NCBI RefSeq assembly: GCF_026283925.1
Contig: NZ_JAPDPF010000002.1
Location: forward strand, 310,001 to 374,000
Reading direction: 5' to 3'
DNA: 64,000 nt
Source: Dyella halodurans
GTDB taxonomy: Bacteria > Pseudomonadota > Gammaproteobacteria > Xanthomonadales > Rhodanobacteraceae
In this document: positions 5,724 through 43,137 of the stretch, piece by piece
Layout: every line of letters begins with the position of its first letter
Numbering within the stretch: the first letter of the stretch is position 1
Program-made: the position numbers and the translations under genes
Notes under the pieces: generated by a model
Seen by the model: the letters and a program-made list of their open reading frames with translations, nothing else
The model's database searches: none
Told to the model about the DNA's origin: nothing

Positions 5724-8700
5724 GCGACCTGTGGCTGCCGGTGGCGGCGTTGGTGGCGGTCGCCAGCGCGCCGCTGTGCATGTGGGCACAGACGGCACCG
5801 AGTCCGCCGATGAAGCAACTGCTCGACTCGGCGCGCGTATGGCAGTCCAAGAACCGGCCCGACATGGCGCGTGGCATCGTTGCGAAGGCGCTGCTGATCG
5901 ACCCCACGCAACCGGACGCGCTGGCCCTGATGGGCGAGGTCGAGCTGTCGTCGAACCGACCCGCTGAAGCCGCCAAACTGTTGCAGAAGTTGCAGGCGCT
6001 TGCTCCAAACCATCCCGCCACGCTTGAGCTGGCCGACGCGTACCGCCTGGCCACCAGCGACAAGATGGCCCTGGCGCAGGCGCTCCTGCTGGCTCACTCG
6101 GGCAAGCCGGAAGAGGGCTGGCAGCAGATGCAGGCGTTGTTTCCCCACGGTGCGCCCCGTGGCGCCCTGGCTGACAGTTACTACCGCGTGATGGCGGGCG
6201 CGCCGGGCGGGCGCGACCGGGCCATTGCTGAACTGCGCACGCGCGTCGCCGAGGATCCTGACGACCTGGATCTGGCCCTGACCCTGGCCAACCTGCTGAC
6301 CGACCGACGCGACACCATGGTCGAAGGCCTGGACATCATCTATCGGGTCTATCAGCGCCAGGACAGCAACCGCGCGCGGGCGCTCGACTTGTGGCGACGC
6401 GCACTCAACAGTGCCGGCAGTGACGACCCGGCGTATTACGTCTGGTACCAGCGCTATCTCAAGGAAGTGCCCGACGACACCGGCGCGCAAGCCGCCCTGG
6501 CAGCCCTGGCCAAGAAGGGCGGCGCGACCTACGTGGGGCCACCCAGGGGCAGCGGGTCCACGGCCACGGGTGGGGCGGCGCCCAGCGTGCCGTCGGCCAC
6601 GGCGCGCGAGGGTGAGGCGGCGGGCAACCAGGGCCTGACCCTGATGCGCGAGGGTCGCCATGACGAGGCGCGCGCCCAGTTTGCCCGTGCGTTGCAGCTC
6701 GATCCGGACAACGCCGCCAAGTGGCGCAGCCTGATGGCGACCAGCACGTTCTGGGGCACGCTGGCGAAGGCGCGGGCGGCCAATGCCGAGGGCCATCCGG
6801 AACAGGGCGAAGCGCTGGCGCGCGAAGCGTTGCGCCAGCAGGCCGACCAGGCCGATGCGAAAGAGGTGCTGGCGACGTCGCTGATCGCGCAGGAGAAGTG
6901 GGCCCAGGCAGAGGCCGTGTTGCGCCCGATGGTGGACGCAGCACAACCCAACGTGGATGCGCTGGCCTTGCTGGCCAAGGTGCTGATCCAGACCCATCGC
7001 GCGGACGAAGTCACCCCACTGATCGAACGAGCCGAGCAGCGTTACTCGGGCTCAGGCGAGGCCATGCTCAAGCTTCGCGCGCATCTGTTGTCGATCCAGG
7101 CCGACCAGCTGATCGCCGAGGAAAAGCATGGCGCGGCCGTGCTGACGCTGGAGCGGGCCATACGCCTCACGCCGCAGGACGCCTGGCTGCGCTACACGCT
7201 GGCACGGCAGTACCGCGACCTCGCTTTGCCGGCCTTGGGGCGTTCGGTGATGGAAGACGGATTGGCGCTCGCGCCCACGCCGGACATGCGCTACGCCACG
7301 GCGCTCTATCTCAACTCCCTGGACGACATCGACGGCGCCAGCGCGGTGCTGGCGCAGGTGCCCACCGCGGATCGGTCGACCGGCATGCGCGAACTGGCCA
7401 GCAACCTGCAGGCCCAGCGCGAGCTGCGCGAGATTCGACAACTGGTGGCGAAAGGGCGTCGGCAAGAGGCGGGGCAACGGCTCGACCGCCTGGCCGCGCA
7501 GTCCAGGGATGATTCGCAAATGCTGGCCAGCGTGGCGCGCGAGTGGATTGCGCTGGGCGAGCCGGACAAGGGCCTCAAGCTGGTGCGCGATTGGTTGGAT
7601 GCCCATCCCAGCGACCCGGCCATCAGCGTGCGCTTGCGCTACGGCGAACTGCTGGCGGCAGCGAACCGCGACGACCAGCTGCCGGCCTGGATCGCCGATG
7701 CGCGCGCACGCCCTGGCGTCACCCAGGAACAGCAGGCGCAATTCGATGACCAGCTGCTGCGCTTGTCGCTGCGCACGGCCGGCCGACAGATCGATGCGGG
7801 TGAGCTGAAGCGGGCGGGACACACGCTGGATGCAGTGCCGGATGCGGGCAAGGCCGATCGGCGCTGGCTACTGGCCCAGGCGGAGCTGCTCGAAGCGAGG
7901 CGCGATTACCGTGGCGCCGAGGCCGCTGCCCGCCAGGTGCTGGTGAACCATCCCGGCGATGTCGATGCGCGCCTGACCATCGCCCGCATGCAGGCGCACA
8001 GGGGGCAACGCAGGGAAGCTGAAGAGACGGTGCGCGAGGTACTGGCCGATACGCCGGCCGATGACGTGGATACGCGCCTGGCCGTGGCGCGTCGTTTCTC
8101 GGCGCTGGGGCGACGCGCCGAGGCGCGTGCCGTGGTCGATCCCTTGCGACAGCAGTATCCCGATCGTTCCGACGTGACCTTGCAGGCCGGGCGAGTGGCG
8201 CAGGCCGAGGGTGACTTCAACGGCGCCGCCCGGCTTTACCGCACGGCGCTGGCGCAGGAACAGGGCGAGGGCGAAACGCCCAGCCCCGAAGACGGCCTGA
8301 CTTCGGCCGGACGTGCGCTGCAGGGGCTGGATGACCGACGCCAGGGCCAGCTGGCGATGGGGGTGATTCAGTCCAACCTCTCCGGCACCGATGGCATCTC
8401 GCGGCTCAATGCCACCGAGATACCGATTTACGCGCGCATTCCCGACGGCTATACCGGGCACTACTTCTTCCACGCCGATCCGGTATTGCTCGACACCGGG
8501 CGCTTGCGGGCCGACCAGTTCGACCCCGCCTACGAGTTCGGCCAGATCGCGGCGCTGGGCAACGCGGGCCTGGCGCCGGTGCGGGAGAACGACAAGGGCG
8601 TGGCCCTGGCCGCGGGCTACGAGTTCAATGGCGCCGACAACAGCTGGCGCGCCGATATCGGCAGCACGCCGCTCGGCTTCACCGTCACCAACGTGCTGGG

Positions 8701-22127: not shown

Positions 22128-24395
22128 ATGCTCGTTCGCGAGTTGCGTAGAGAGTTTTCAGGCATGCTCGTTTCCACCTTTCCAACCAGCGCGGCGCCCA
22201 GGACGATCGCCACGCCAGAACAAGAACAGCCGCGCAGTGCCCGTCTACTCTTCTGGGGCGGTGCGGTTGCGCTGTTCGTCATGGTGCTGGTTTCGGACGC
22301 AGCCACGATGATGTTGCGTCGCCATGTAGGGACCATGGCCCCGATCTGGTCAGCCAACGGCTTTGTAGCCGGTGCGCTGGTGTGCATACCACGTCGATAT
22401 TGGCCGGCGATGGTCATGACGACTTTGGTAGCTCTTTTTCTCGGCCAATATCTGGCCTTCGGCACGCTGCAAGGTGATCACCTACTCGTGGCGTCCCTGC
22501 TGGCAACGGCGAACGTGCTGGAGATTCTGTTGGTCTCTTTCACCATTCGCCGCTATCTCCCGGTCGTCGCTGGAGAGGCCAGTGGCTACCTTCGTCTCGG
22601 TCGAGTACTGATCGGTGCATCGCTGGCAGGCTGTGTTGCATCCACCATGCTGGCCGTCGTCGCGCATGCGTTGGCCCCCGATAGCGCGCTCCTCGAAACG
22701 TCAGAGAACTGGTTCCCCGCGCATCTGCTTGGCATGGTGATCGTCGGCATGTTCACCCTGGTGGTGTTTCGCGAACGCGGCCGCGTATTTGGCACGCCAG
22801 GGACGCGGATGCGCATGTTGCGCGACGTGCTGCTGCTCACGGCCGTCACCATCGGCGTGTTCGCGCAGACGCGCTATCCGCTGCTATTCACGGTCTTTGC
22901 ACCGCTGCTGTTCCTTGTATTTCGCTACGGTTCCACCGGCCTGGTCGTAGGTGTGACCATCTTGACCCTGGTCACCAACATGGCCACGGCTTTCGATGTA
23001 GGACCATTCTCGCTCATTCCCCACACGACAGTCGAAGAGCGCACCTTGATCGCGCAGGTCTATCTGGGCGTGATATGCCTGGTAGCCGTGCCCGTGATGC
23101 TGGCACTCGGAGACAGGCAACGCCTCTCCGGGAAAGTCGCTGAAAGCGAACGCCTGTATAGGCTGCTGGCCGAGTACGCCAGCGACCTGGTCGTGCGCAT
23201 GGCCAGTGATGGTGCCCGACGCTACGTTTCGCCGTCGGTAAAGGAGCTGCTGGGCTGGACACCTGAGCAGTTCGCGGCCCAAGGGGTCGAAGCCATTCAC
23301 CCGGACGATCGGGAGCGCGTGGCCGCAGTCATTGGGCACTTGCGGCGTACCGGAGAGTCGAAGCTCGTGCGTTACCGGGTCCGCAATCGCGCGGGCGGCT
23401 ACCATTGGTTCGAGGGTCTAGGCAAGCTCGCGCCCAGTCCGGATCGTGCCGGTGAGATCGAGTTGGTCTATTCCGCCCGCGACATCACCGCGCGCGTGCT
23501 GACCGAAAGAGCGCTGGCCAACAGCGAGGGTCGCCTACGCGCAATCACGGACGCCATGCCAGCGATCATTGCGCATGTGGATGCCGAGCAGCGCTATACG
23601 TTTGTCAACGCATTTGCGGGCGAAGTGAACGGCGTCGAGGCTGCATCGATCATTGGGCATACGGTCATGGAGGTGCGTGGCCCTGACGTCTATGCCGTGC
23701 TCAAGCCACATATCGAGCTGGCCCTGCGTGGCACCACCACCACATTCGAGTACGACGTGAAGTTGGACGGTCAGACCCGGTACTTCCAGGCCAACTATTT
23801 GCCGGCACGCACCGGCGACGGAACGCCCAACGGCTTTTACGCGCTGAACACGGAAATCACGCGCATCAAGCTGGCCGAACAGCAATTGCACTTCCTGGCG
23901 CATCATGATGCACTCACCGGTATTCCCAACCGGCTGACGTTCCAGGAAAGCGTCCAGCTCGCGGTGCAGCGTTCCGCGATCACGCACGAACCGTTGCTGC
24001 TGATGATGATCGACGTCGATCACTTCAAGCAGATCAACGACACCTACGGCCATGCCGCTGGCGACACCGTCCTGAGCGAGGTGGCGACGCGGCTCAGTGC
24101 GACAGTCCGAAAAACCGATCTGCTTGCACGCCTCGGCGGCGATGAATTCGTGATCCTTTGCCCCAACATCGAGGACATCGACACCGCCCGGAACCTGGCG
24201 CAGAAGATCACCGATGCGATGCAACGACCAGCCTCGCTCGGCCACACCGAGATCAACGTCACCTTGAGCATCGGCGTGGCGCTATGCCGCGATACCACCT
24301 CGGCGGACGCCCTGGAGAAGCGCGCCGACGAGGCGCTCTACCAGGCCAAGGAAGCCGGGCGCGCGTGCTTCCGCATTGCCACGGATGGCGTCTGA
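22128..24395 (+). CDS. MASE1-PAS-PAS-GGDEF diguanylate cyclase
   Basis: A 755-residue membrane sensor. Residues ~40-330 form eight or more membrane helices of the MASE1 type, then come two PAS domains (about 345-470 and 475-600), a short coiled linker and a GGDEF domain. The active site GGDEF is at 670-674, with I-site R661-K-T-D664 at the correct spacing, so it is predicted to be active and feedback-inhibited. The first PAS carries a PAC tail (IELVYSARDIT). The start may be ATG 22128 or 22164. It converges on the EAL gene, and a dyad shared with the Crp/Fnr region lies just upstream. Confidence 0.93.
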   Translation: MLVRELRREFSGMLVSTFPTSAAPRTIATPEQEQPRSARLLFWGGAVALFVMVLVSDAATMMLRRHVGTMAPIWSANGFVAGALVCIPRRYWPAMVMTTLVALFLGQYLAFGTLQGDHLLVASLLATANVLEILLVSFTIRRYLPVVAGEASGYLRLGRVLIGASLAGCVASTMLAVVAHALAPDSALLETSENWFPAHLLGMVIVGMFTLVVFRERGRVFGTPGTRMRMLRDVLLLTAVTIGVFAQTRYPLLFTVFAPLLFLVFRYGSTGLVVGVTILTLVTNMATAFDVGPFSLIPHTTVEERTLIAQVYLGVICLVAVPVMLALGDRQRLSGKVAESERLYRLLAEYASDLVVRMASDGARRYVSPSVKELLGWTPEQFAAQGVEAIHPDDRERVAAVIGHLRRTGESKLVRYRVRNRAGGYHWFEGLGKLAPSPDRAGEIELVYSARDITARVLTERALANSEGRLRAITDAMPAIIAHVDAEQRYTFVNAFAGEVNGVEAASIIGHTVMEVRGPDVYAVLKPHIELALRGTTTTFEYDVKLDGQTRYFQANYLPARTGDGTPNGFYALNTEITRIKLAEQQLHFLAHHDALTGIPNRLTFQESVQLAVQRSAITHEPLLLMMIDVDHFKQINDTYGHAAGDTVLSEVATRLSATVRKTDLLARLGGDEFVILCPNIEDIDTARNLAQKITDAMQRPASLGHTEINVTLSIGVALCRDTTSADALEKRADEALYQAKEAGRACFRIATDGV

Positions 24396-27737: not shown

Positions 27738-28065
27738 TCGCGTTCCAAATCAGAGGGCAGGGAGCTGCAACGCGGCGAGAAGGTAGGTAATGGCGTCCCC
27801 AAATCCGACCCGCAGCCGCCCAGGAGATGCAGATGGCCTGTGTCTGGAGCATCTCCCAAGCGGCAGACCAGGGGATCGACCTATTCCCTTTTGCGGCCAT
27901 CTCCGTCGAACGGCCTCGCGAAGTCTTGGCTGCTGGCCACAACACGCGATCATGGATGATCGGGCCCGGCCGCATGATCAGCCGCGGACCAGATGAAGTC
28001 CTGGCGACCCGCAGGAACCACCAGTCCAGTTGCACCAAAGACTGGCTCGTCGACCCAGCGAAGAA
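27738..28065 (+). pseudogene. Decayed copy of the SRAP-domain gene
   Basis: Translated pieces match the gene at the window start: EGRELQRGE with EGRELRPGE, SDPQPP with FDPQPP, then, after a one-base deletion near 27810, MACVWSIS with VACLWNLS, DLFPFAAI with DLFSFAAI and EVLAAGH with EILAAGH. After that the alignment is disturbed by an insertion or tandem duplication before a DWLVDP that matches AWLKPDP. No start, no N-terminal catalytic region and no single frame remain. It is clearly a pseudogene related to, but not recently copied from, the first gene (roughly two-thirds nucleotide identity by eye). Confidence 0.8.
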
Positions 28066-28630
28066 AGAGCTTGGCGTTCCGATGTGTCAGCCTGGGACCG
28101 TTTCGGCCACTGAGCGACGGGATGAGGAAATACCGACGCATCTTCCAGCCGCACCAGTCGCCTGCGAAGTCATGGCGGCAATCCGACGATCCGCGAGCAT
28201 CTGGGCGATCTCGCGGACGGTCATGGCCAACCTGGACGGTGCGCGCAAGGCCTGGGTACCGGCATCAAACGTCCAGTCAAATGACATGGGCTGCTTCCTG
28301 CGGGAACTGAGGTGTTCAAAAGGAAGCAAGGCGGCTACCAAGCCGCGTCAGGGAACGCCTAAAGCGGCGTGAGAGCCTACTGATGTAATTTTACAGAGTA
28401 GGTCGTTTCCGCTGCCGTTGCGATTTGACCTATCTTTAATCGACAGATATATCAATTACTTGACATGCCTTGGCGCCCGTTACACTGCGGCCGGGCCGTT
28501 GCGTACCATTTGCTGCTGGGTGTTGCACTCGCTCGAAAATTTTCAGTTGGCGAAAGTGACGGGGCATGCTCAAGGCTGCGCCCCGAGAGACAAGGGTGTT
28601 GATGACTGCCTGGCAGCGATCAACGCTTAC
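28066..28630. other. Intergenic region at the 3' end of the recombinase module
   Basis: About 565 bp. A 66-codon minus-strand frame (28087-28287, with AGGA upstream of its ATG) is the only gene candidate and has no recognised domain. The stretch 28380-28500 is AT-richer than its surroundings. As the left flank of the ginABCD-like operon, it is a place where one end of the island could lie, but I found no repeat matching the right flank. Confidence 0.4.
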
Positions 28631-29101
28631 TTAACGATCATCCCTGCCGGGCCCCAAGCCTAGGGATTCGACCTGAGCTTTTGGAAGAGCGCCCATCCCG
28701 TTCAACGATCGACGGACCTGATCCCACTGTGGGAAGAACTTCACCCAGGCGCGCATGCCCCCCACTTCACCCACGGCTAGAAGCATGGCCTTGTGGGACG
28801 CAATCAGAAGCTCACGCGATTGCTGGAGAGCTAGGCACGACTCCTCCAGTCGCGCGACCTTCAGCCGCAAGTTGGTGACGGACTCCTGGTCGACGTCCTC
28901 GGCAAGCTTCCTGATTGCCTGCTGGCGTCGCTGGAACTCTTCCAGAAGGGCGCGTCGTTGCGCATGCCGGGTGATATCGGATGCATTCTTGAACGGCGCC
29001 CCTGATTCCCGCGTGACCGCTCTTGCCGTGATCGTGACGTTGGACGAAAGCATCTGCTCGAGCGCGGCTTGTAGCTTGGCTATGTCATCCACGATGCTCA
29101 T
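28631..29101 (-). CDS. ginD: GinD/TnpC-like coiled-coil partner of the tyrosine recombinases
   Basis: A 156-residue, highly charged, helix-rich protein with a heptad-like region (about 45-105, EEFQRRQQAIRKLAEDVD). It has no catalytic motif. Small coiled-coil proteins of this kind follow the recombinases in Tn554 (TnpC) and in GInt islands (GinD), where they are required for recombination. The start ATG overlaps the stop of the upstream recombinase by 4 bp (ATGA), so it is the last gene of a coupled four-gene operon. The name rests on context and shape more than sequence identity. Confidence 0.75.
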   Translation of the reverse strand: MSIVDDIAKLQAALEQMLSSNVTITARAVTRESGAPFKNASDITRHAQRRALLEEFQRRQQAIRKLAEDVDQESVTNLRLKVARLEESCLALQQSRELLIASHKAMLLAVGEVGGMRAWVKFFPQWDQVRRSLNGMGALPKAQVESLGLGPGRDDR

Positions 29102-31464
29102 TGGTCACCATCCCTTCGTGGCTGAGCATCGAGAATGGAGCCTTGCGACACGGGCTCAACCGAAGTGAAGAGATCGCGACCTTCCGGGAAGGGCTTGCTG
29201 TCCGGCGCTGTATCCAGAACGATCTTAATGTTACCGACGCGAGTGGCGATGGATTGGAGCTGGTTTTCCCAGCCGACGTTACGGCTGGATTCCGGAACGG
29301 CCTTGATACTCGATTCGACGCGAATGGTCATATCAAGAAGTTTCTGCAGGTTTTCTCGCTCCGAGGTTACTTTCGTACGCGTCAGGTGCCTGCATCCGTT
29401 GAAGCACTCCAAGTGTTTAGGGCAGGGGTCGACAACGAAGCTGTTAACGCACAAGCCGTATGGCGTGACGTGCAGTCCGTCGGCCTCTGCCTCTAAATAT
29501 TCGAACGCCGCTTGGTCACCCTTGCTTGTCTGAATCTTCAGAAATTCATCAATGATGGGGCCACTGACTCTTCGGGCCACGATGAGCTTCGCGAGCTCCT
29601 TTGTCCGATCTCCAAGGGAGGCCGCCACCTCCGGGAGGTCAACGTGAGCCAAGTCTTCTGCAAGGCTCCGATGATCGTAGGCATGGCTTTGCGACACGTT
29701 TCGACGCCCGAATCGCTTGGTGATGATCGCGTCAGAGACGCCGACTCTAAAGAGCTCCGCATTTTGAAGGTGACGGATCGAATGAGTGACCATCTTCAGC
29801 CCGCGGGACTCCGGATCTCTGCAGTACCGTGCAAAAAGTCCGTTTTCGCCTCCTGCGAGCATCTTTTGTATATCTTGCGCCGATGCACGCCCCACAAAGG
29901 CATAGCGTTTCACATCAACGATACCGCCGTTCCTGCCGTCGATCAATGATCGGATCGGCGTGAGAAAGAGGATGCCTGCCGGGCTGATTGACCCATTTTT
30001 AAGCGGAAAGGGCGTCGTATCAGACAACTTGGTCGCCATGAATTTGTGGACCGCGACTTCCACCGCCTTCACGCTGACGAATGCCTCATGCCACGGCGTA
30101 TTTCCCCTGAAGGGCCGATTTCGCGCATCTACAATTTCGACACCCGTTGCCTTGCAGAACTTAGCCCAGTATTTGCCTATGTTGTCGCTCAGGCCATGGC
30201 GAAACCGACGCGACTCGTGCCACTCTCGAATTTCGTCGAGAACATTGCTGTCGTAAGAGGCTCGGTATTTTTCGACAAGATCTTCGGGCAACGGACGGGA
30301 GGTGATTTGAATGGCCCCGGAGAGTCGCGTGTACATCTCCCACGCTGGCACCAGATCGCCTTCGCCAAGCTCGGGAAATATCCGGCCTGTCGCAACCTGG
30401 TGCTGTAGACGAATGCGCATCGCCGCCGTTAGTGCTCTCGCCCTTTCTACCGCCTCTTGAGTCATGTCCGCCAGGAGTGCGGGAACGTGTTGGAGGGTTT
30501 CAAAGAGATACACACCGGAAGACTTCTCATCATCCGGCTGCTTCTCCGCAAAGTAGCGGAGCGATAGGGATCGACCTATGCCGCCAAGCGTTTCTGCGGG
30601 GCGGCCCATTGGATCGATATGCTGAGTCCACAGAAGGCAGTCATTTGGAAGGAGAGCTGTCTCGCCGATACGCATTCCTGTGGCAATCGCAAGCTTGAGG
30701 TGCTCAAATCGAAGTGCGTCCGCGAAGGTCTTTGGCCGCTCGGTGTAAATAATTCTCACCAACTCCCAAAAGGCCTTCTCATCAGGAAGCCTATCGGCGG
30801 CTTTTCGCTCACTCAGCTCTTTCCGCTGGCTGTCTGTGCGGCGGTAGCTATTGTCCCGCTTCTCGAGACTCTCCACAGCCGCATGTTGGGTGGCCGCCTC
30901 TGTTGTTGCATACGGCACGCAGTAGCGAAGTAGGGGTGAGTGGTTCGCAACATGCCGCACGTCAAGCTGGTTCCTGACAGCCATCTTAAGATTCGCCGCT
31001 ATCTTTCCGGATGCACCGAAACGCATGGCCACGTTGTATGCCAATTTTATTAGATCCGGCGTGACGTCCGTCGGGTCTGTGTCCTGCGCACAAAGTGCCA
31101 GGATGCGGAGCGGGCGCAGGACGTTAATCAGCGCGTGCTGCGGTTTATTTCTCTTGACAAGAATCTCGTCAAGAACCACCGACTTGCATAGGTCCGCCCA
31201 GCCCTTCGTCATGGTCGATCGCAACGGGGACTTCGGGTGATCGGGCGGCATGGTTTCTTGCAGTGCTACTAGCTCCGCCTCCGAAAACTCGAAGCCAGTG
31301 AGCCATAGAGTCGGAGGTGGAACTTGCCCCGCAAGGGTAGTCAGATTCCATCGCTCGCTCTTTGCAACCCTTCCGGTCGCGTTATCGCCGATGTCCCAGG
31401 AAAGCCCGTTTGCGGTGGCGAGTCGCTGGCCGGCCTCGACAAGCCTGGTCAGGAACTCATTCAT
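29098..31464 (-). CDS. ginC: Large tyrosine recombinase, GinC-like
   Basis: A 788-residue integrase with a long N-terminal region. The catalytic domain spans about residues 230-650: box I arginine in ATGMRIGE, THSIRH (HxxRH) and a nucleophile Tyr in SHAYDHRS. After it comes a Cys/His-rich segment (CVNSF...DPCPKHLECFNGCRH) that may bind zinc, and a C-terminal helical tail. ATG 31464 overlaps the previous stop by 8 bp and is preferred to the upstream in-frame ATG 31491. Its size is unusual for phage integrases but usual for the third recombinase of GInt modules. Confidence 0.85.
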   Translation of the reverse strand: MNEFLTRLVEAGQRLATANGLSWDIGDNATGRVAKSERWNLTTLAGQVPPPTLWLTGFEFSEAELVALQETMPPDHPKSPLRSTMTKGWADLCKSVVLDEILVKRNKPQHALINVLRPLRILALCAQDTDPTDVTPDLIKLAYNVAMRFGASGKIAANLKMAVRNQLDVRHVANHSPLLRYCVPYATTEAATQHAAVESLEKRDNSYRRTDSQRKELSERKAADRLPDEKAFWELVRIIYTERPKTFADALRFEHLKLAIATGMRIGETALLPNDCLLWTQHIDPMGRPAETLGGIGRSLSLRYFAEKQPDDEKSSGVYLFETLQHVPALLADMTQEAVERARALTAAMRIRLQHQVATGRIFPELGEGDLVPAWEMYTRLSGAIQITSRPLPEDLVEKYRASYDSNVLDEIREWHESRRFRHGLSDNIGKYWAKFCKATGVEIVDARNRPFRGNTPWHEAFVSVKAVEVAVHKFMATKLSDTTPFPLKNGSISPAGILFLTPIRSLIDGRNGGIVDVKRYAFVGRASAQDIQKMLAGGENGLFARYCRDPESRGLKMVTHSIRHLQNAELFRVGVSDAIITKRFGRRNVSQSHAYDHRSLAEDLAHVDLPEVAASLGDRTKELAKLIVARRVSGPIIDEFLKIQTSKGDQAAFEYLEAEADGLHVTPYGLCVNSFVVDPCPKHLECFNGCRHLTRTKVTSERENLQKLLDMTIRVESSIKAVPESSRNVGWENQLQSIATRVGNIKIVLDTAPDSKPFPEGRDLFTSVEPVSQGSILDAQPRRDGDQ

Positions 31465-32986
31465 TGGCTTCGCCCATGCTTTCAGCGGCATCGCTCGGTA
31501 TGCCGTGGATGACTTGCATGGCCGCGCGCAGTGTGCGCGTTAACTGGGCCTGTGAACCTGACCCAGTCTCATGAGAGGCATTCGCAAACATCCTGACTAC
31601 CGGTCGAAGGCTGTCGACGACGTTTTCGTGGACGCTACGATCAGCCACAGGAAGAAAACGCCTGCATGTGTAACAACTGAGAACGGGGTTCTTGGCGCAT
31701 AGGCTTTGCCCGATAGTGCAGCCACCAATTCCCGCGATCGGTATACCGTGTGGTACCGCGCCAATCTGCTGCGACGGCGGAAGGGCGCGAAGCTCCGTGC
31801 TCGTAATGGTTTTTGTTTTAGCTGTTTCGGCGATCGTCGTGTAGATGGGGGATAGGGACAAGGCTTGATTGACGCGCTCGGCCTGCGAAGGAGATGCGTC
31901 AAAGTAGACGTTCGCCGTTAGCGTGGACGCATGCCCTAAGAATTCACTCAGCGAGATGTGGGACGCACCGGCATCCGCCAGTCTCTGCGCGGCCGTGTGC
32001 CGAAGATCGGTGGGAGTCCATGCCTCCCCCAGTAGTTCAGAAGTCAAATCAATGATGACGTGACTGACACTGGCAGGCGACAGGTGAAAGAGACTGTCCG
32101 CTGGCGAAGTCGAGTCGGCATGCTTCGATCCTTGCCTCCTTAAGAATTCAACAAATAGCGCCGCCCATTCATGCTTGATGCGGCGAGTTACTCTGCGAAG
32201 GGCATCTCTATCCCGAAGCTTGATGAGAGGAACCGACACATGCACCGCGCCGCTTTCATGAAGCCTCACATCCTGGACCTTGATTCGCGCGATAGAGCCA
32301 GGGCGCAAGCCGTACTGGTGGGATAGCAGCAGAATGCACGCGTTCCGCAGCTCGAGGTCGCCAATGCTAGTGCTGCCGCGATCAATTGCCGCCTTTAGGT
32401 CGTCAAAGAATTCTATGATGAGGCTTTGTTGATCGAGCGGAACAAAGCACTCGCGATTTCGGACGGTTTTATAGATATCTGCGCGCGGCGCCCGTAATGC
32501 GCTTACAAGGTCATGCAGATCCATAGTCCATTGACCAATTGACAGTTCGCACATTGAGTGAATCGCAGATCGCAGTGCGCCGGCGACGCTAACGGTCTCC
32601 ACCGGTAGAACAAACTCATTCCAGTATTCGGACCATTCTGTCGGGCTTAATGTGGCAGCTCTTGCGAGGTGGCTTGGCCGAGTGAAGAGCAGGTTGGCGT
32701 AGGTGACTACGGTGCTCGGATCGCATCGATCGAACAGATCGGTCACGATGTGCTTAAAAAGCAATCGGTATCTCAGGGGGAACCTGAGAAAATTTAGGTT
32801 GTGCTTCGTTCCGTCAGCGTGCACGTACCAAATATCGGTCTCAGAAAGATGAGATATGGAACGAACCTTGTCGTGGAAGTCGTCGTAGTAGCGAATCAAC
32901 CGGGGCAGATTGTCTGGTACTTCAGGAGACGGGAGCTGCTCAAGGGAAAGGGCTTCGGGGGAGTTCATTTCAATTGACACCATCAA
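31457..32986 (-). CDS. ginB: Tyrosine recombinase, GinB-like
   Basis: A 509-residue integrase-family protein. Box I is QYGLRPGS, box II is TPTDLRHT, then FLGHAS and the nucleophile Tyr in NVYFDAS. The first His of the usual HxxRH is Thr here (TPTDLRH), while both arginines and the tyrosine are kept. A C-terminal cysteine cluster (C-x6-C, CYTC) may bind zinc. The start region (MMVSIEMNSPE) overlaps the ginA end by 17 bp, although an ATG a few codons later is also possible. It is the second gene of the four-gene operon. Confidence 0.85.
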   Translation of the reverse strand: MMVSIEMNSPEALSLEQLPSPEVPDNLPRLIRYYDDFHDKVRSISHLSETDIWYVHADGTKHNLNFLRFPLRYRLLFKHIVTDLFDRCDPSTVVTYANLLFTRPSHLARAATLSPTEWSEYWNEFVLPVETVSVAGALRSAIHSMCELSIGQWTMDLHDLVSALRAPRADIYKTVRNRECFVPLDQQSLIIEFFDDLKAAIDRGSTSIGDLELRNACILLLSHQYGLRPGSIARIKVQDVRLHESGAVHVSVPLIKLRDRDALRRVTRRIKHEWAALFVEFLRRQGSKHADSTSPADSLFHLSPASVSHVIIDLTSELLGEAWTPTDLRHTAAQRLADAGASHISLSEFLGHASTLTANVYFDASPSQAERVNQALSLSPIYTTIAETAKTKTITSTELRALPPSQQIGAVPHGIPIAGIGGCTIGQSLCAKNPVLSCYTCRRFLPVADRSVHENVVDSLRPVVRMFANASHETGSGSQAQLTRTLRAAMQVIHGIPSDAAESMGEANE

Positions 32987-34187
32987 ATCGTCGGAGCGAA
33001 TTTACGAGGCAGTCGTAGCTCTCATTCCAGTCTTCAGCCGCCGCCGCCTCAAAGTACGCCCTGCCATAGTGGCGCGGCATGGGTGATGAAGGAGACCAAC
33101 CGAAAAAGGCACGAAGTTTCTCGCAGGCGGTGTCGAGGTTGTCGCCATGGTCGACATATTTGCTGAGACGATAGACGGCGCAGGTATGTCTCAAGCTGTG
33201 AAGGGTTACGCTGTGCGTTCCGCGATCCTGAAGTGTTTTCACTGCGCTGACCGACAGGCTGCCAGTGGCGATTTCCATAATGCGCTGAAAGGATCTCAAA
33301 TTGAGCGGCTTGCCTTTTTGAGAGCCAAACAAGAAGGGATGGCTCGAACGCCTCTTTTTATATGTGCCGACCAGGTCCGAAATGACCGCCAATTCCTCCG
33401 AGACTGGAAGTTGCCTTGCCGAGTGCCTTGTCTTCAATGAGGGCTTGTCGCGCCTCGGATCCTCATTTGCATAGGGAGAGCGCCCCACGTTGATCCAATG
33501 ACGCTCCTTGTTGGCTTTAACATCGAAGGACGAACTGATGGCATCAACGGGCAACATCGCGAGCTCGCTTCGGCGGAGGCCTGTATGTAGCAGGAGGATG
33601 AAGATCAGGTAGTTTCGCCAGCGCTCCCTCTCGGAACGGAAGGGGTTGCGTACGTGCTTCGGGTCAAAGATTTCGCATAACTCGCGCACCACCAATGAAG
33701 GAAGGGCGCGTATTGGAAGAGGTGGCCGCGAAGGGGAGGGTGAAAGCTGGCCATAAAGCCGTCGTATGCGCCGCAGTCGAGTATTGAGGTCCTTTACTCG
33801 TGCCTCTGCGCTGGGGCCCAGATAGGTCAGCATGTCAGTTACAAAGCGGCTGGCAGACGTCCAAGCCAGATCACCCGACACGCCCTTGGCGGACGCCTCG
33901 TTGCGAACTTTGGTGTGGAAGGCAAGTAGAATTGCCTCAATCGCGTCAAAGTCCGCCGCCATGAGCACGCGATCGAGACTTTCGCCGCCCAACACTTCAG
34001 CAGCGCGGTAAAGTCGATCGACCGCATACAGGTGGCGAATCCTGGTGTTTGATGCGAGCCCAGCCAGAATCGCCTCAGACCAAATGGTTGCGCAGTACCG
34101 GGGGAGCCCGTGGGAGTCGATCAACACGGCGCCTGCCAGCCCTCTGGGCGCCGCATGTCCCGTAATAACTAGAGTCCCCATTGCCAT
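32970..34187 (-). CDS. ginA: Tyrosine recombinase, GinA-like
   Basis: A 405-residue site-specific recombinase. An N-terminal SAM-like core-binding region (about 40-170) precedes the catalytic domain, with box I TGLRRSEL, box II LHSLRHT, a FFGWSP segment and the nucleophile Tyr in PRHYGRAYF. All expected catalytic residues are present. It is the first gene of the operon, and its start (MAMGTLVITG) faces about 640 bp of hairpin-rich non-coding DNA where the promoter and possibly the recombination site lie. Confidence 0.87.
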   Translation of the reverse strand: MAMGTLVITGHAAPRGLAGAVLIDSHGLPRYCATIWSEAILAGLASNTRIRHLYAVDRLYRAAEVLGGESLDRVLMAADFDAIEAILLAFHTKVRNEASAKGVSGDLAWTSASRFVTDMLTYLGPSAEARVKDLNTRLRRIRRLYGQLSPSPSRPPLPIRALPSLVVRELCEIFDPKHVRNPFRSERERWRNYLIFILLLHTGLRRSELAMLPVDAISSSFDVKANKERHWINVGRSPYANEDPRRDKPSLKTRHSARQLPVSEELAVISDLVGTYKKRRSSHPFLFGSQKGKPLNLRSFQRIMEIATGSLSVSAVKTLQDRGTHSVTLHSLRHTCAVYRLSKYVDHGDNLDTACEKLRAFFGWSPSSPMPRHYGRAYFEAAAAEDWNESYDCLVNSLRRFDGVN

Positions 34188-34643
34188 GGACCGGCGCGCA
34201 GCGGCACGAAGGAAGGCGCCATGCTCCTTGAGTACCGCAATTGCAAGGAGTGCCAGGAAGCGCGATTGGAGTTAGGCCGCCCCATTACATACCCTTCGGA
34301 ATTCCAGGATGTCGTGTATTAACGCGTTCGACCGTGCAACCCATTACTTGAGGCTTGAAGCGAGCACCATTAAGCGATGGTTTATCGGCGCCTCGATCAC
34401 AGGCCGCTATCCATGGTGCGGATTACGGTGATGGCTGCGGATCCCGAGTGAAGGCCTGCATTGGCTGTTATCATCCACGCCATCACACCCGCCACGCCTC
34501 ACTACCACGGCTCATTTGCCTTGGCACGCGCAAATTGGCGGGTTTTTTTTGCCTGTTCCAAGGGCTAGGGACAGATGGTTTCACCTGCACCGCGCCAGGA
34601 GAATCCAGCCCGCGCGCAGTCAGACCCGTCATTTCACATCCAG

Positions 34644-34681
34644 CCGTCACCAGTGACGGCCCGCCGCCAGGGCGTCACTGG
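34644..34681. repeat. Overlapping inverted repeats CCGTCAC-CA-GTGACGG and CCAGTGACG...CGTCACTGG
   Basis: The palindrome CCGTCACCAGTGACGG (34644-34659, perfect 7-bp arms) overlaps a second pair, CCAGTGACG and CGTCACTGG, separated by 14 bp. The left arm is thus shared by two alternative hairpins. Such nested symmetry suits either a recombinase-binding core or an attenuator-like switch. Its function is not shown. Confidence 0.5.
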
Positions 34682-34738
34682 TAACTGTCCAGGCGGGCAT
34701 GCGCGATGCAGGGTTGTAGACATCGTTCAAGCCTCAAA

Positions 34739-34773
34739 CCAGCCAAATTTGCGACTGACGCAAAATTGGCTGG
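34739..34773. repeat. Long hairpin, 15-bp stem with 5-nt loop
   Basis: Arms CCAGCCAAATTTGCG and CGCAAAATTGGCTGG pair over 15 positions with one mismatch around the loop ACTGA. There is no T-run after it, so a simple intrinsic terminator is unlikely. It lies between the ginA promoter side and the small genes at 34.8 kb, and could be a bidirectional terminator or a recombination or replication signal. Confidence 0.5.
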
Positions 34774-34825
34774 GGTGACCTCGATTATCGAAGCGTCGTG
34801 CGATGAAACAGGCTACGCATCGTAA

Positions 34826-35020
34826 CTAGCGAGACTCTGGCTTTGTGACCGTTGTGATCGGCCCGGGCCTGTACCACGCTGCGTCTTCAGAGCACTCCGG
34901 AATATCGCTGCAGTCGATGTTCTCTTCCCGTATCGCCGCCAGGCGCGCGTGCGCCTCAGCGCTCAGAGCCGCCGGCTTGCCCGTGTCCAGCCTGAATTTT
35001 ATGACTTTCCCTTTCAGCAT
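34826..35020 (-). CDS. Small hypothetical protein, antitoxin-like
   Basis: A 64-residue protein. The middle reads LSAEAHARLAAIREENIDCSDIPECSEDAAW, which resembles the short ID-SDIPE-W pattern of many small antitoxin-like proteins. It is the last gene of a minus-strand trio with the VbhA-like gene (10-bp gap) and the Xre gene. I cannot name a partner toxin. Confidence 0.55.
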   Translation of the reverse strand: MLKGKVIKFRLDTGKPAALSAEAHARLAAIREENIDCSDIPECSEDAAWYRPGPITTVTKPESR

Positions 35021-35030
35021 GGCGGCGCCC

Positions 35031-35444
35031 TCATTCGGGTTTTAGAGCTACCAGCTCGGCCAATGTGATTTCTCCGGCCACATAGCGGCGGGTGCGCTCC
35101 TTGGTGGCATCGTCCGGGGTGAAGCCTTCCAGGGCAACGGTAGCCAGCGCGTAATTCACACATTCCTGACGGCGTTGCCGCGCAGCCTCGCCACCCTCGA
35201 TCACTTCCATCCCGCCGCCCGGTAGCATCCGGACTAGGTCGCCCTGATCGTCCAAACCGACGTAGCCTCCTTCAGCGCGCATCTTGGCGGCGAGGGCGTC
35301 GCTTTCTGGGTTTGGCGCCATGAGGTAGGCCGCAAACATGTCCATGAAAATGTCGGCTTCGTCTTCCGACAGGTCGTCGGCATCAAACTTGCCATGCAGA
35401 GCAGCATGAACGCGATCTAGCGTGTAACCGACCGTTTTGTTCAT
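35031..35444 (-). CDS. VbhA-like antitoxin-domain protein
   Basis: A 137-residue acidic protein. The C-terminal ~45 residues (CVNYALATVALEGFTPDD...YVAGEITLAELVAL) fit the VbhA antitoxin helix pattern, which in other systems inhibits a Fic-family AMP-transferase through an S/TxxxE(G/N) motif. Here the corresponding stretch is T-VALEG. The N-terminal part is unrecognised. No Fic toxin gene lies in the surrounding region. It follows the Xre gene on the same strand by 36 bp. Confidence 0.6.
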   Translation of the reverse strand: MNKTVGYTLDRVHAALHGKFDADDLSEDEADIFMDMFAAYLMAPNPESDALAAKMRAEGGYVGLDDQGDLVRMLPGGGMEVIEGGEAARQRRQECVNYALATVALEGFTPDDATKERTRRYVAGEITLAELVALKPE

Positions 35445-35480
35445 GGTGGGTCCCTGGTTGTCGGTCTAATTCACCTGTGT

Positions 35481-35807
35481 TCATCTACCTTTTCGACCGT
35501 CCAAGCTCTTCAGCAGTCGATCCTTGTCAGCTGATGTGAGCTTGTCAAATGCCAAGATCATGGCGGCCATCTTGTCGTCCGCCGCAAAAAGGTAGGGCAG
35601 GGGGACCTCAAGGGCCTTGGCCAGGCGCTGAACCGTGGCCATGTCTGGCTCATGGATGCCCTTCTCGTACCTATTGATGCGAGTACTGGCCACGAAGGGA
35701 TCAATCCCTGCCTCAATTCCAAGGCTCTTTTGAGAGAGGCCTCGATCTTCTCGAGCCTCCTTTAGCCGCCGCTGGAAGACCAGGCGGAGGTCAGCATCAC
35801 CGGGCAT
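35481..35807 (-). CDS. Xre-family HTH repressor
   Basis: A 108-residue protein with a Cro/C1-type helix-turn-helix at residues 10-70 (FQRRLKEAREDRGLSQKSLG, NRYEKG, LAKALEVPLPYLF) and a short C-terminal helical tail ending GRKGR. Two 15-bp palindromes lie directly upstream of its start, in the gap to the divergent genes, so it probably represses itself and both flanking transcripts. This layout is common in phage and island immunity or TA control. Confidence 0.88.
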   Translation of the reverse strand: MPGDADLRLVFQRRLKEAREDRGLSQKSLGIEAGIDPFVASTRINRYEKGIHEPDMATVQRLAKALEVPLPYLFAADDKMAAMILAFDKLTSADKDRLLKSLDGRKGR

Positions 35808-35831
35808 GCGTACGCGTCTCGTAGATTGATG

Positions 35832-35880
35832 CTACGAGATTCGTAGTTTTGCCTTGAGTTCGATACTACGAATTTCGTAG
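35832..35880. promoter_or_regulatory. Twin 15-bp palindromic operators (CTACGARWTTCGTAG)
   Basis: CTACGAGATTCGTAG at 35832-35846 and CTACGAATTTCGTAG at 35866-35880 have the same 6-bp arms, and the centres are 34 bp apart. A further half-site TCTCGTAG lies at about 35817. They occupy the intergenic space between the Xre gene and the divergent plus-strand genes, so they are most likely the Xre operators. Confidence 0.8.
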
Positions 35881-35924
35881 CATGCAGCGCAAGCCCCTAA
35901 TGGGCGGAAATTGGGCTCACGGTC

Positions 35925-36269
35925 ATGCGGCTGCTGCTCACCGACGAAGATGATCCGATCTCCATCCCGCTTGACGATGTCATCCGGGAGGCCTGGGCTC
36001 TCCAGTACGACAGGGCGCATCGAGGCGATAGCATGGATCGGCTCCGTGAACGAATCGCAATTTGCTTCGCTAACAGCCTAGCTGTGTGCCTCGACACCGA
36101 TCTACAGCCACCGACTGCCGCTCAGATGCAGTACGCCACATCGATTGCCAGGGAGCTTGGTGTTTCGTTGCCCTACGAGGCACTCCGTTTTCGCGGAACC
36201 ATGGCAGATTTCATCGACCGTTTCGCGGACGCTCTGCGTGCTAAACGCGAAACCTATCTCCGCAAATAG
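35925..36269 (+). CDS. Hypothetical protein of the island type
   Basis: A 114-residue protein divergent from the Xre gene. Its C-terminal half (TAAQMQYATSIARELGVSLP, then FIDRFADAL) resembles a short helical domain seen at the ends of some topoisomerase and conjugative-element proteins, which is a weak similarity. The next gene follows after 3 bp, so the two form a pair. Function unknown. Confidence 0.6.
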   Translation: MRLLLTDEDDPISIPLDDVIREAWALQYDRAHRGDSMDRLRERIAICFANSLAVCLDTDLQPPTAAQMQYATSIARELGVSLPYEALRFRGTMADFIDRFADALRAKRETYLRK

Positions 36270-36272
36270 GGG

Positions 36273-36590
36273 ATGCCCATGACAAGTGATGAAGATGATC
36301 GTTTTGGTATGCCACAGAGCGCCTTCGAAGCTGCGTCGGACAGCGACGGACGTGACAGTCCAGTTTTCCGCGTCGGAATGTATGTGCCTACGCGCAGAGA
36401 AGTAGCGAAGCTACGGGCGGACGACCTACGACCGATCCTCATTGACTGGATGTTGGAGAGTCCGAGCGAGCTGATTCCCAATAACGAGCAGATATCTGCC
36501 GTCCGAGTCATATTGGGCACTCGAACTGATGCTGGTGAGGCTGTGATTCAGCAACTGATTGGCGAATGCGACGCCTATCTTAGAGTTTAG
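36273..36590 (+). CDS. Hypothetical protein
   Basis: A 105-residue acidic protein that I do not recognise. The start is ATG 36273 or 36279, 3 bp after the preceding gene's stop. It is probably co-transcribed with that gene and controlled by the Xre operators upstream. Confidence 0.6.
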   Translation: MPMTSDEDDRFGMPQSAFEAASDSDGRDSPVFRVGMYVPTRREVAKLRADDLRPILIDWMLESPSELIPNNEQISAVRVILGTRTDAGEAVIQQLIGECDAYLRV

Positions 36591-37013
36591 GTGCTTGGCT
36601 CATTGGTGCCGAACTCCGGCGATGCCGTGGCGCAGTCTAGTCGCGCGCATCAATTAGGACGCGTTATTCGGAGGTAGGGGGGGGCGGGAGGCCCTAGGGA
36701 GCGGGGCGGCAGGGTCGGTATTGGCTCGCGCCCTGCATTTGCCGAGAGACATACCACTAGCAAAATCTTTCATTTGTAACTATCGGACGGGTCGCGGGGC
36801 GAGCGGCTCACCGCTCGAAGCAATTGGACTCCACCTCGCGAGGGCGCAAGCGCCTAAGGCGGAGCGTCGCGCGGTGCGGGAAAAGAAGGAAATAGCCGAC
36901 GAACTGGATCCTCACGAAGGTATCGGTGAGTCACACCCAGGATGTCTGTGCGTTCGATTTGCAAGCCGTTCACTTAGACTAGGAACAACGAGTCGAAGGA
37001 AATCGGGTCGCAC
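36591..37013. other. Intergenic region upstream of the sensor kinase
   Basis: About 420 bp. It has a G-rich run at 36676-36690 and no recognisable gene: the frame 36721-37017 has no family resemblance and runs into the kinase start. It could include the right border of the island and the kinase promoter. Confidence 0.4.
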
Positions 37014-40944: not shown

Positions 40945-43137
40945 TCAGTCGTCGGCGACGAGCCGAAACACTCCAAAGGGCTGAGCCTCGCTGACCCATG
41001 TTTGAGCGATTTTCCAACCCGTGCCTTGCACCAGCGAAGCAAACGAAGCTGGCGTGAACTTGTGGGAGTTTTCCGTGTGGATGGTTTCGCCCGCATCGAA
41101 CCGGAATTCCTTGCCCGCCACGGTCACACGCTGATCTACCTGGCTAACCAGATGCATCTCAATACGCTGCTTGTCTGGGTTCCACACGGACTGGTGTTCG
41201 AACAGATCCAGGTCAATATTGGCCCCTAGCTCGCGGTTGAACCGCACCAGAAGATTCTTGTTGAAGCGGGCGGTGACTCCGTCGGCGTCGTTGTACGCGG
41301 CAAGAAGCGTCTTTATGTCCTTGACCAGATCGACGCCTACAATCAACTGCGAAGCGTCGCCCAATTCCGCACGAAGCTTACGGAGAAGGTTCGTTGCGTC
41401 AGCGGGTTCAAAGTTGCCGATGGTGGATCCCGGAAAGAACCCTATCACTGCCGCCCGACGGAATTCGTCGGGCAGCAGCAAGGGCTGCGTAAAATCTGCG
41501 ACCAACGGGCGAATGGCAAGGTTCGGGTAAATCGCCTCCAGCCTCTTGCGAGCCTGCGCCAACGCGGCTCCGCTGATGTCGATGGGTACATACGACGACA
41601 GCTGCGGCGCTGCATCCAGCAGCAGCCGGGTCTTCTCGCTGGCACCACTACCCAGCTCAACCAAGGCGGCACCATCGGGCATGGCAGCCGCGAGGGCCGG
41701 TGCAATCGTGGCGAGCAGAGACAGTTCGGTGCGAGTGGGGTAGTACTCCGGCGTCGCGCAGATCTGCTCAAACAGTTCCGATCCAGCGGCGTCGTAAAAG
41801 TACTTCGGCGATAGAGTTTTCCGGGACCCACTCAGCCCTGCGACGGCATCCCGTGCGAACTCGTTATCGTCATTCTGGGTCTTGTCGCGGGTGACGACGT
41901 CGCGTGCCAGGCGAACACCCGAAAACATCCAGCGCTGATCCGGACGGTAGAAGTTCCGATAGGACGGGCGTACGTGGTCAGGCGGCGTTGCCAAGGACGC
42001 GCCGCGCAGGACCATCTGGCCGGACATGAATTTGCCGTTGTATTCGCCCAAGGCATCCGGCGCGGCCTCATAACCCGGATATGCATCGTAACTGCTGCGG
42101 GTCCACTGCCAGGCGACGTCGTAGATCTGCTCCAGCTTTCCCTCTCGCGCGGCATGTTCCCACTCAGCCTCGGTGGGCAGCCGCGCGCCTTTCCAGCGGG
42201 CAAACGCCGCTGCTTCGTAGTAGCTTACGTGTGTGACGGGCGCGGTCACATCCAGGGGGCGCATGCCTTGAAGCGTCATGTGGCGCCACTGCGCGCCGTC
42301 GTGTTCCCAATAGAGTGGGGCGCGCCATTGTTGCGCCTGAGCCAGGCTCCAGCCATCCGACAGCCACCATCGCGGTTGTTCGTAGCCGCCATCGTTCATG
42401 AAGTCCAGCCACTCGCCAACGGTAACCAATCGGTCGGCGATCTCGAAGGGCTCAAGCCACACGCGATGCGCGGGACCCTCGTTGTCGTAGAAGAACCCCG
42501 GTTCTTGCATGCCAATGGTCACGAGGCCGCCTTCCAGCGACTGGAAGTTGCTTTGGCGAATACTTTTGATCTTGAACCGGGCGCTGCGATCATAGGCCGG
42601 GCACAGAGGGGACTGGGCAAACAAGTGAAGAATATCCATGAGCAACAACTCCTGGTGTTGCTGCTCATGCGCCAGGCCCAGATCGATGATCGCCAACGCA
42701 GTCTTAGAGGGTCCGGACTGCAGGAATTCCAGCAGATGATCATCTACGTACTCGCGATAGGCGAAGACGTCATCGACGGTGGGCCGACTGATCAGCCCAC
42801 GTTGGGGGCGGGGGTGACGTGGGCCGGCCGCCTCGTAATAAGAGTTGAACAAATACGCGTAACTCGAATCGAAAACGCGGTACCCAGATTTGAACGCGGA
42901 GAGTACGAACGTCTCGAAAAACCAGGTGGTATGTGCCAGATGCCACTTGGCTGGACTGGCGTCAGGCATCGACTGAAGCACCATGTCCTCTGCGTCCAAC
43001 GGCTGAACGAGAATTTCCGTGTCGGCACGAATGGATTGATAGCGATCCACCAACTCGCTGGTCGTGCGATCCATCTTTCGTACAAGATGGTTGACGGCTG
43101 CCGATTCCATCTGAGCAGAAAGTTGTGCACGAAGCAT
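40945..43137 (-). CDS. egtBD: Fused EgtB-EgtD: ergothioneine sulfoxide synthase plus histidine trimethyltransferase
   Basis: A single 730-residue frame. Residues 1-~425 are EgtB: a DinB-like iron site (H66/H69, and H157-E-Q-Q-H161-Q-E163 as HxxxHxE) and an FGE-sulfatase domain with the RLPTEAEWEHAA signature. Residues ~430-730 are EgtD: start motif SPKYFYDAAGSELFEQI, SAM site VELGSGASEKTR and a final HTENSHKF segment. Together they would make hercynine from histidine and then the sulfur-bonded ergothioneine precursor. The start has AAGGAG 7 bp upstream. Separate proteins are usual in bacteria, and fungal Egt1 has the reverse domain order. Confidence 0.93.
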   Translation of the reverse strand: MLRAQLSAQMESAAVNHLVRKMDRTTSELVDRYQSIRADTEILVQPLDAEDMVLQSMPDASPAKWHLAHTTWFFETFVLSAFKSGYRVFDSSYAYLFNSYYEAAGPRHPRPQRGLISRPTVDDVFAYREYVDDHLLEFLQSGPSKTALAIIDLGLAHEQQHQELLLMDILHLFAQSPLCPAYDRSARFKIKSIRQSNFQSLEGGLVTIGMQEPGFFYDNEGPAHRVWLEPFEIADRLVTVGEWLDFMNDGGYEQPRWWLSDGWSLAQAQQWRAPLYWEHDGAQWRHMTLQGMRPLDVTAPVTHVSYYEAAAFARWKGARLPTEAEWEHAAREGKLEQIYDVAWQWTRSSYDAYPGYEAAPDALGEYNGKFMSGQMVLRGASLATPPDHVRPSYRNFYRPDQRWMFSGVRLARDVVTRDKTQNDDNEFARDAVAGLSGSRKTLSPKYFYDAAGSELFEQICATPEYYPTRTELSLLATIAPALAAAMPDGAALVELGSGASEKTRLLLDAAPQLSSYVPIDISGAALAQARKRLEAIYPNLAIRPLVADFTQPLLLPDEFRRAAVIGFFPGSTIGNFEPADATNLLRKLRAELGDASQLIVGVDLVKDIKTLLAAYNDADGVTARFNKNLLVRFNRELGANIDLDLFEHQSVWNPDKQRIEMHLVSQVDQRVTVAGKEFRFDAGETIHTENSHKFTPASFASLVQGTGWKIAQTWVSEAQPFGVFRLVADD

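Follow-up and report, generated by a model that had tools for sequence, protein, structure and literature searches.

The 64-kb window analysed here (C18:310001–374000 of the Dyella halodurans genome G000, 4.69 Mb in 25 contigs) carries four overlapping minus-strand genes, ginA to ginD, which span window positions 28631–34187 with every frame intact. We describe these genes, the genomic island of the GInt type to which they belong, and the candidate insertion site of that island, dif. The gene ginA (32970–34187) encodes a tyrosine recombinase of 405 residues and is followed by ginB (31457–32986), which has a TTG start and encodes a second tyrosine recombinase of 509 residues, by ginC (29098–31491), encoding a large, divergent recombinase-like protein of 797 residues, and by ginD (28631–29101), encoding a small protein of 156 residues. 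The assignments combine the list of open reading frames (ORFs), Pfam and alignments.

Conservation of the ginABCD module

Matches to the Pfam family Phage_integrase lie above the cut-off for GinA (1.5e-10) and GinB (3.3e-11) and below it for GinC (5e-4), and GinD gave only sub-threshold matches in this database, so that no family was assigned to it. Relatives were gathered with a scan based on the GinC alignment, which used two patterns and yielded 80 loci; a scan of genome contigs with GinB alone returned no relative. Across the 90 loci surveyed, which include the window and in which genome G004 is present twice (L014 and L070, 100% identical over 16,520 bases), homologues of all four genes occur together in 76 and stand in the same order on one strand in 75, and the remaining 14 loci are mostly cut contigs or contain broken genes. 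Alignments place homologues in this order on plasmids and in genomes of several classes, at 34–47% identity. A GinB match at an E-value of 1e-10 was found in only three of the 61 genomes searched, the window's own genome being counted, and the module is therefore patchy in this group.

Because order, sizes, catalytic pattern and homologues agree, the identification of the four genes as a ginABCD module of the GInt type, real and not a product of chance, is well supported at the sequence level. Membership was judged by the features described in PMC5385486 and not by alignment to GinA–D of P. stutzeri DSM 4166; what is said of this and the other papers compared below refers to the parts consulted. 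Ordinary phage integrases were rejected as an identity for these genes on account of the fixed four-gene order. An earlier note on this DNA had already named a ginABCD-like module, an order now found in the 75 loci, and the ORF list agrees with its four overlapping genes on one strand and with its sizes of 405, 509 and 156 residues. The 788 residues that it gave for GinC fit an internal methionine at residue 10, which is the start in several relatives; the full ORF has 797.

Catalytic residues of GinA, GinB and GinC

Residue conservation was compared in 74 full-length homologues of GinA, 78 of GinB and 72 of GinC, with G004 entered twice in each set, and the assignment of the recombinase boxes is our own reading of the motifs. 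GinA keeps R205, K252, H330, R333, W364 and Y374 in all 74 rows. In GinB, R228, K256, R329 and Y361 are kept in all 78 rows and H352 in 72 of them, and the histidine position of box II is occupied by Thr326 in the window and by threonine or other residues across the rows. All 72 rows of GinC retain R274, K317, H570, R573, H574 and Y605, with Arg596 taking the box III His/Trp position. Since one of the scan patterns contained the box with H570, R573 and H574, the invariance of these three residues is in part a product of the selection, whereas that of R274, K317 and Y605 is free of such bias, and the residues agree in all eight rows that came from outside the box-pattern scan.

The first arginine is reported to be missing from the GinC of published GInts (PMC5385486), whereas R274 is present here, and GinC has also been reported to be without the catalytic RHRY motif (PMC10214605). 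Contrary to these descriptions, the residue pattern suggests that GinC of this lineage is potentially catalytic. The structure model of GinC has a mean predicted local distance difference test score (pLDDT) of 81.6, with residues 588–591 and 595–609, around Y605, below 50, and for this reason the model leaves the predicted active site unconfirmed. The top Foldseek matches of the model are recombinases, although they are weak (best E-value 0.15, none at 0.001). Clusters of conserved C-terminal cysteines that look metal-binding are seen both in GinB (C423, C430, C438 and C441) and in GinC (C681, C690, C696 and C700).

Left ends of related elements and their similarity to dif

Upstream of ginA, the relatives carry a core of the form CATAA-N6-TTATG (with variants), then about 24 bases and a GTTGC arm. 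Of the 73 distinct ginA loci, 11 are cut by a contig end and 62 retain 300 nt or more ahead of the anchor residue; in 48 of these 62 the core (at most one mismatch) and the GTTGC arm lie just outside ginA, compared with none of 3100 shuffled sequences. Elements from different hosts share DNA identity from the core onwards, as in the pair L063/L069, where it runs from 7118 and the core lies at 7119. When compared with 15 published dif 28-mers taken from the table in PMC2731167, 25 of the 48 left ends match one of them at 22 or more of the 28 positions, a level reached by 13 of 960 anchored shuffles in which the fixed letters were kept. The left-end site in X. arboricola differs from the dif of X. 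campestris at two of 28 positions, as does that in Afipia from the dif of Bradyrhizobium. The core is the sole CATAA-N6-TTATG of the record in 9 of 21 other GInt-bearing records. In the window's genus, CATAATGTATATTATG is present in exactly one copy in each of 20 genomes, and in G004 about 75 bp separate this single dif from the ginA frame downstream of it.

The opposite end is visible in two Stenotrophomonas elements, in which the right end is found 14–15 kb on and is followed directly by a displaced XerC-side remainder, TGCGAAAT. Short imperfect direct repeats flank the element in two Stenotrophomonas relatives, and site-specific insertion with short imperfect direct repeats is described for published GInts (PMC5385486, Bardaji et al. 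2017). Taken together, these comparisons indicate that the core corresponds to dif and that this branch of the GInts would insert at dif and rebuild the site. By eye, the DNA upstream of ginA in the P. aeruginosa plasmid pBJ86 (L016) has the arm GTGTTGCG together with another palindromic core, GATTA-N6-TAATC, so that the core may follow the choice of target.

Extent of the island in G000 and its empty site

No dif lies within the 64-kb window. The dif of G000 is found on the same contig at C18:387707–387722 (position 77707 if the window is extended), 43.5 kb beyond the start of ginA. A left-end model built from 48 relatives, G004 among them, matches the flank of dif in G000 (2.9e-8), G019 (4.7e-13) and G012 (1.2e-6), and its match in G004 is not independent since that genome belongs to the training set. 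The left end at the dif of G000 is oriented towards ginA. At the opposite end of the module, sequence comparison and a pattern scan place a displaced XerD-side half of dif at 28385–28395 on the minus strand, its first base being 28395. The right end of the island extends from the junction to the stop of ginD (28396–28630) and contains a GTTGC arm, GCAAC on the minus strand, recognised by eye, and the chromosomal side of the junction (28044–28395) is homologous to DNA beside dif in genome G014. From 28395 outwards, 279 of 353 positions match this DNA, and on the far side of dif 219 of 284 positions match between G000 and G014. As both flanks meet at an uninterrupted dif in G014, that genome represents the empty site, and the island extends over about 49.3 kb from window position 28396 to dif at C18:387707. 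A search of four flank proteins in the genus gave no usable synteny, so the empty site is shown by dif rather than by gene order.

A half-site scan with three exact patterns, from window position 24000 to C18:390900, found the half at 28395, dif itself and one match inside ginA. The sequences TGTAAAAT, located at 28395, and TGTCAAAA, located in the left end beside dif, form a would-be repeat pair, which may come from two elements.

The earlier note had proposed a comparison with related genomes for an empty site, and G014, with its uninterrupted dif matching both island flanks, supplies one. Its span of 28631–34187 is correct for the module but takes in only one end of the island of about 49.3 kb, and the dif target was missed. 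It held that the module marks a live or recent island; the junction and the empty site bear out the island, while the claim that it is live or recent is not supported, no left end being found in the window. The pseudogene that it saw beside the module corresponds to a frame-broken gene at about 27950–28341, and the small genes that it placed on the other side are present and are described below.

Side of entry and the GinC tree

The outer half-site of the left end is of the XerD type in 25 loci, of the XerC type in 12 and unclear in 12, one duplicate locus being included. On a GinC tree of 71 rows, of which 23 and 12 are labelled, the labels need two changes, the minimum for three groups, and none of 200 shuffles was as low. 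The window falls inside a set of 27 rows that holds all 12 XerC-outer rows (support 100 by a quick method), in a tree that joins two long branches, the window and L021. The junctions of the window island, with the XerC half outside dif and the XerD half outside 28395, agree with its GinC clade. The side of entry into dif thus follows the GinC tree.

Proposed insertion at dif and alternative explanations

The four genes probably make up the recombination module of GInts from a lineage that inserts at dif, the chromosome-dimer-resolution site of XerC and XerD. In such an insertion the Gin proteins would bring the circular element together with dif and carry out strand exchange around the six-base centre of the site, and one of the Gin proteins would bind the GTTGC arm repeats that lie just within the ends. 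The left end would bring a copy of one Xer half-site, which with the outer half of the host would make a complete dif at the left junction, and the displaced half would remain at the right junction. Both the rebuilt dif and the displaced half are visible by sequence in relatives, and the displaced half is visible in G000. Since dif would survive, dimer resolution should remain available to the host, and more elements could stack there.

Several observations weigh against insertion of this kind. We infer the action of the Gin proteins at dif from sequence. By the strict rule, 14 of the 62 ginA loci are without the core (the window, L013, L016, L028, L036, L037, L040, L055, L060, L075, L080, L086, L092 and L095); a core with two mismatches is visible in L040, L055, L080 and L092. 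Further CATAA-N6-TTATG sites are present in 12 of the 21 other GInt-bearing records. Within the window, the left-end model has no match up to an E-value of 10 and the right-end models, with the junction at 28395 included, have none up to 20. Judged by eye, this island has different arm motifs at its left and right ends, which is not the case in the relatives. The XerD-side flank occurs twice in G014, with the second copy near another dif-like half, and may be repetitive or of phage origin; in G000, the gene next to dif shows weak similarity to DUF3653, a phage family, just under the cut-off, so that the flank may descend from a dif-integrating phage, which leaves its start at the dif half unaffected. 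Finally, 235 bp separate ginD from the right junction, and ginA is 43.5 kb away from the left end. The typical tripartite order, with the operon beside the left end and the cargo after ginD (PMC5385486), is therefore not that of this island, whose operon stands beside the right end, and we file it as a variant rather than as a typical GInt.

With the operon at the right end and the only left end at dif 43.5 kb away, the island is either rearranged or stacked, and this copy may no longer be mobile. One history, which we put forward tentatively and rate at somewhat under an even chance, is that the window GInt entered dif first and lost its left end, and that the rebuilt dif was later entered by a second element, which perhaps lacked gin genes and to which the left end now present at dif would belong. 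In G012 the same left end is found at dif (90% over 51 bp) together with a homologous gene block and no GinB match, and the difference between the arm motifs of the two island ends also speaks for two elements. A helix-turn-helix (HTH)/p114/p105 cassette adjoins ginD in two other GInts of the genus, those of G004 and G019 (72–87% identity), but lies upstream of ginA here. Stacked ends do occur in L024, L035 and L048, where another left end comes immediately after a right end; these were noticed incidentally and not in a systematic search. Against a second entry, no second right end was found by the right-end models, no inner half of dif was found by the three exact patterns except for the match inside ginA, no convincing remnant of a second gin operon is present, and a GInt of the G004 type uses the opposite side of dif for entry. 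Between the DNA inside dif and that upstream of ginA, shared repeats did not exceed the level of shuffles. Two successive entries would change the history of this island and not its dif target.

It is unlikely that the elements are inserted by host XerC and XerD, as is the case for IMEX at dif (PMC5357621, PMC9765430), with the Gin proteins doing something else. The left end does contain a full Xer site, but all four gin genes are needed for excision and integration of a published GInt (PMC5385486), the operon is conserved with its catalytic residues intact, and the arms and ends are conserved beyond the Xer site. That the dif-like core is the element's own terminal palindrome, merely resembling dif, fits the additional core sites in the 12 records above and the 12 of 49 outer halves that are not assignable to XerC or XerD, but is very improbable given that the genus has one dif per genome, which in G004 adjoins ginA, that the outer halves match taxon-specific dif, that identity between elements stops at the core, and that the empty site in G014 is dif.

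Beyond this island, we lean towards the view that a large GInt lineage in Alpha-, Beta- and Gammaproteobacteria consists of self-sufficient dif islands. Their own recombinase trio, with a potentially catalytic GinC, would recognise dif, and the islands would enter on the side of XerC or of XerD depending on their lineage, rebuild a working dif and could be stacked.

Neighbouring genes and related arrangements

The small genes upstream of ginA (34188–36600), assigned by Pfam and homology, comprise a 64-residue ORF, a gene for a VbhA-like protein and the HTH/p114/p105 cassette. A second pair like the 64-residue ORF and the VbhA-like gene of the window (34826–35444) is present in G000 on contig C22 (L003:697–1280), with 51% and 67% identity, beside a different integrase gene. 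The rest of the island inside the window (36601–64000) includes a sensor kinase gene, an EgtB/EgtD-like gene, an RND (resistance-nodulation-division) pump and others, and runs on to dif at C18:387707. Homologues of the block at 40945–62896, with up to 84% amino acid identity, lie at G012:C12:183000–202000 on the element side of dif; their order by coordinate matches that in the island, though dif is on the opposite side.

The broken gene on the chromosomal side of the right junction is perhaps a phage relic. Related genes are found on both outer sides of the island, at 27950–28341 in the window and at L142:16811–17281, the right-hand one being weakly similar to DUF3653, and dif here may hold relics of dif-integrating phages.

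Among the relatives, L048:13602–13845 (Paraburkholderia diazotrophica) has a left end and a further right end about 200 bp apart, a gene-less miniature GInt beside a full one. In G019 the left end at dif is 77.6 kb from ginA, and the DNA between the two has, by eye, related inverted sequences with TTACTTG repeats at both borders (L144:18700–19180 and L013:11490–11900), as if another, transposon-like element had jumped into the left end of the GInt. Burkholderiales contigs of about 6.5 kb (L046, L050, L052, L057 and L071) contain little beyond ginABCD and the end regions, from which we infer a cargo-free GInt repeated at the dif of several replicons.

Relation to known elements

The GInts described in PMC5385486 have the same ginABCD order and three recombinase-like proteins with a small fourth, and the targets named there are an ABC-transporter gene, ssb and a ribonucleotide reductase gene, whereas the target here would be dif. 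IMEX (CTX phage, GGI and LME-1; PMC5357621, PMC9765430) likewise insert at dif by way of a dif-like attachment site; they use the host Xer proteins and have no recombinase of their own, whereas these islands encode three recombinase-like proteins. The elements called SEs likewise have four core genes, encoding two recombinases, a large recombinase-fold protein and a small helper, and their ends have a six-base spacer, as at the dif core here (PMC10214605). Their order is intA-tfp-intB-srap with the large protein second, whereas it is third here, and no blast similarity between SE and GInt genes is reported in that paper. Tn554 also combines several tyrosine recombinases with a small third protein, but its tnpABC has no counterpart of GinC among three genes, against four here, and RIT elements have three recombinases of ordinary size and no fourth gene, against proteins of 405, 509 and 797 residues and ginD here (PMC10214605). 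Tn554 and RIT were set apart by gene content as described in that paper.

In the literature covered, which was limited to open-licence papers and in which absence is not proof, no paper linking GInts with dif was found. Of the 20 word-starts 'dif' in PMC5385486, the 12 inspected appear to belong to words such as 'different', and the whole word 'dif' is absent from PMC10214605. What is new here is dif as a target of GInts. Bacteria undo dimeric chromosomes at dif, and the mobile users of the site known from the cited papers borrow the host Xer proteins; if the present reading is true, islands that rebuild dif and encode their own three recombinases would represent another way of reaching this site. 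Since the target, the ends and an empty site are defined, it becomes possible to test how GinA, GinB, GinC and GinD share the work, and the conserved residues of GinC suggest that it should be re-examined as an active enzyme. If GInts of this lineage do enter and rebuild dif, stacks of islands would be predicted at replication termini.

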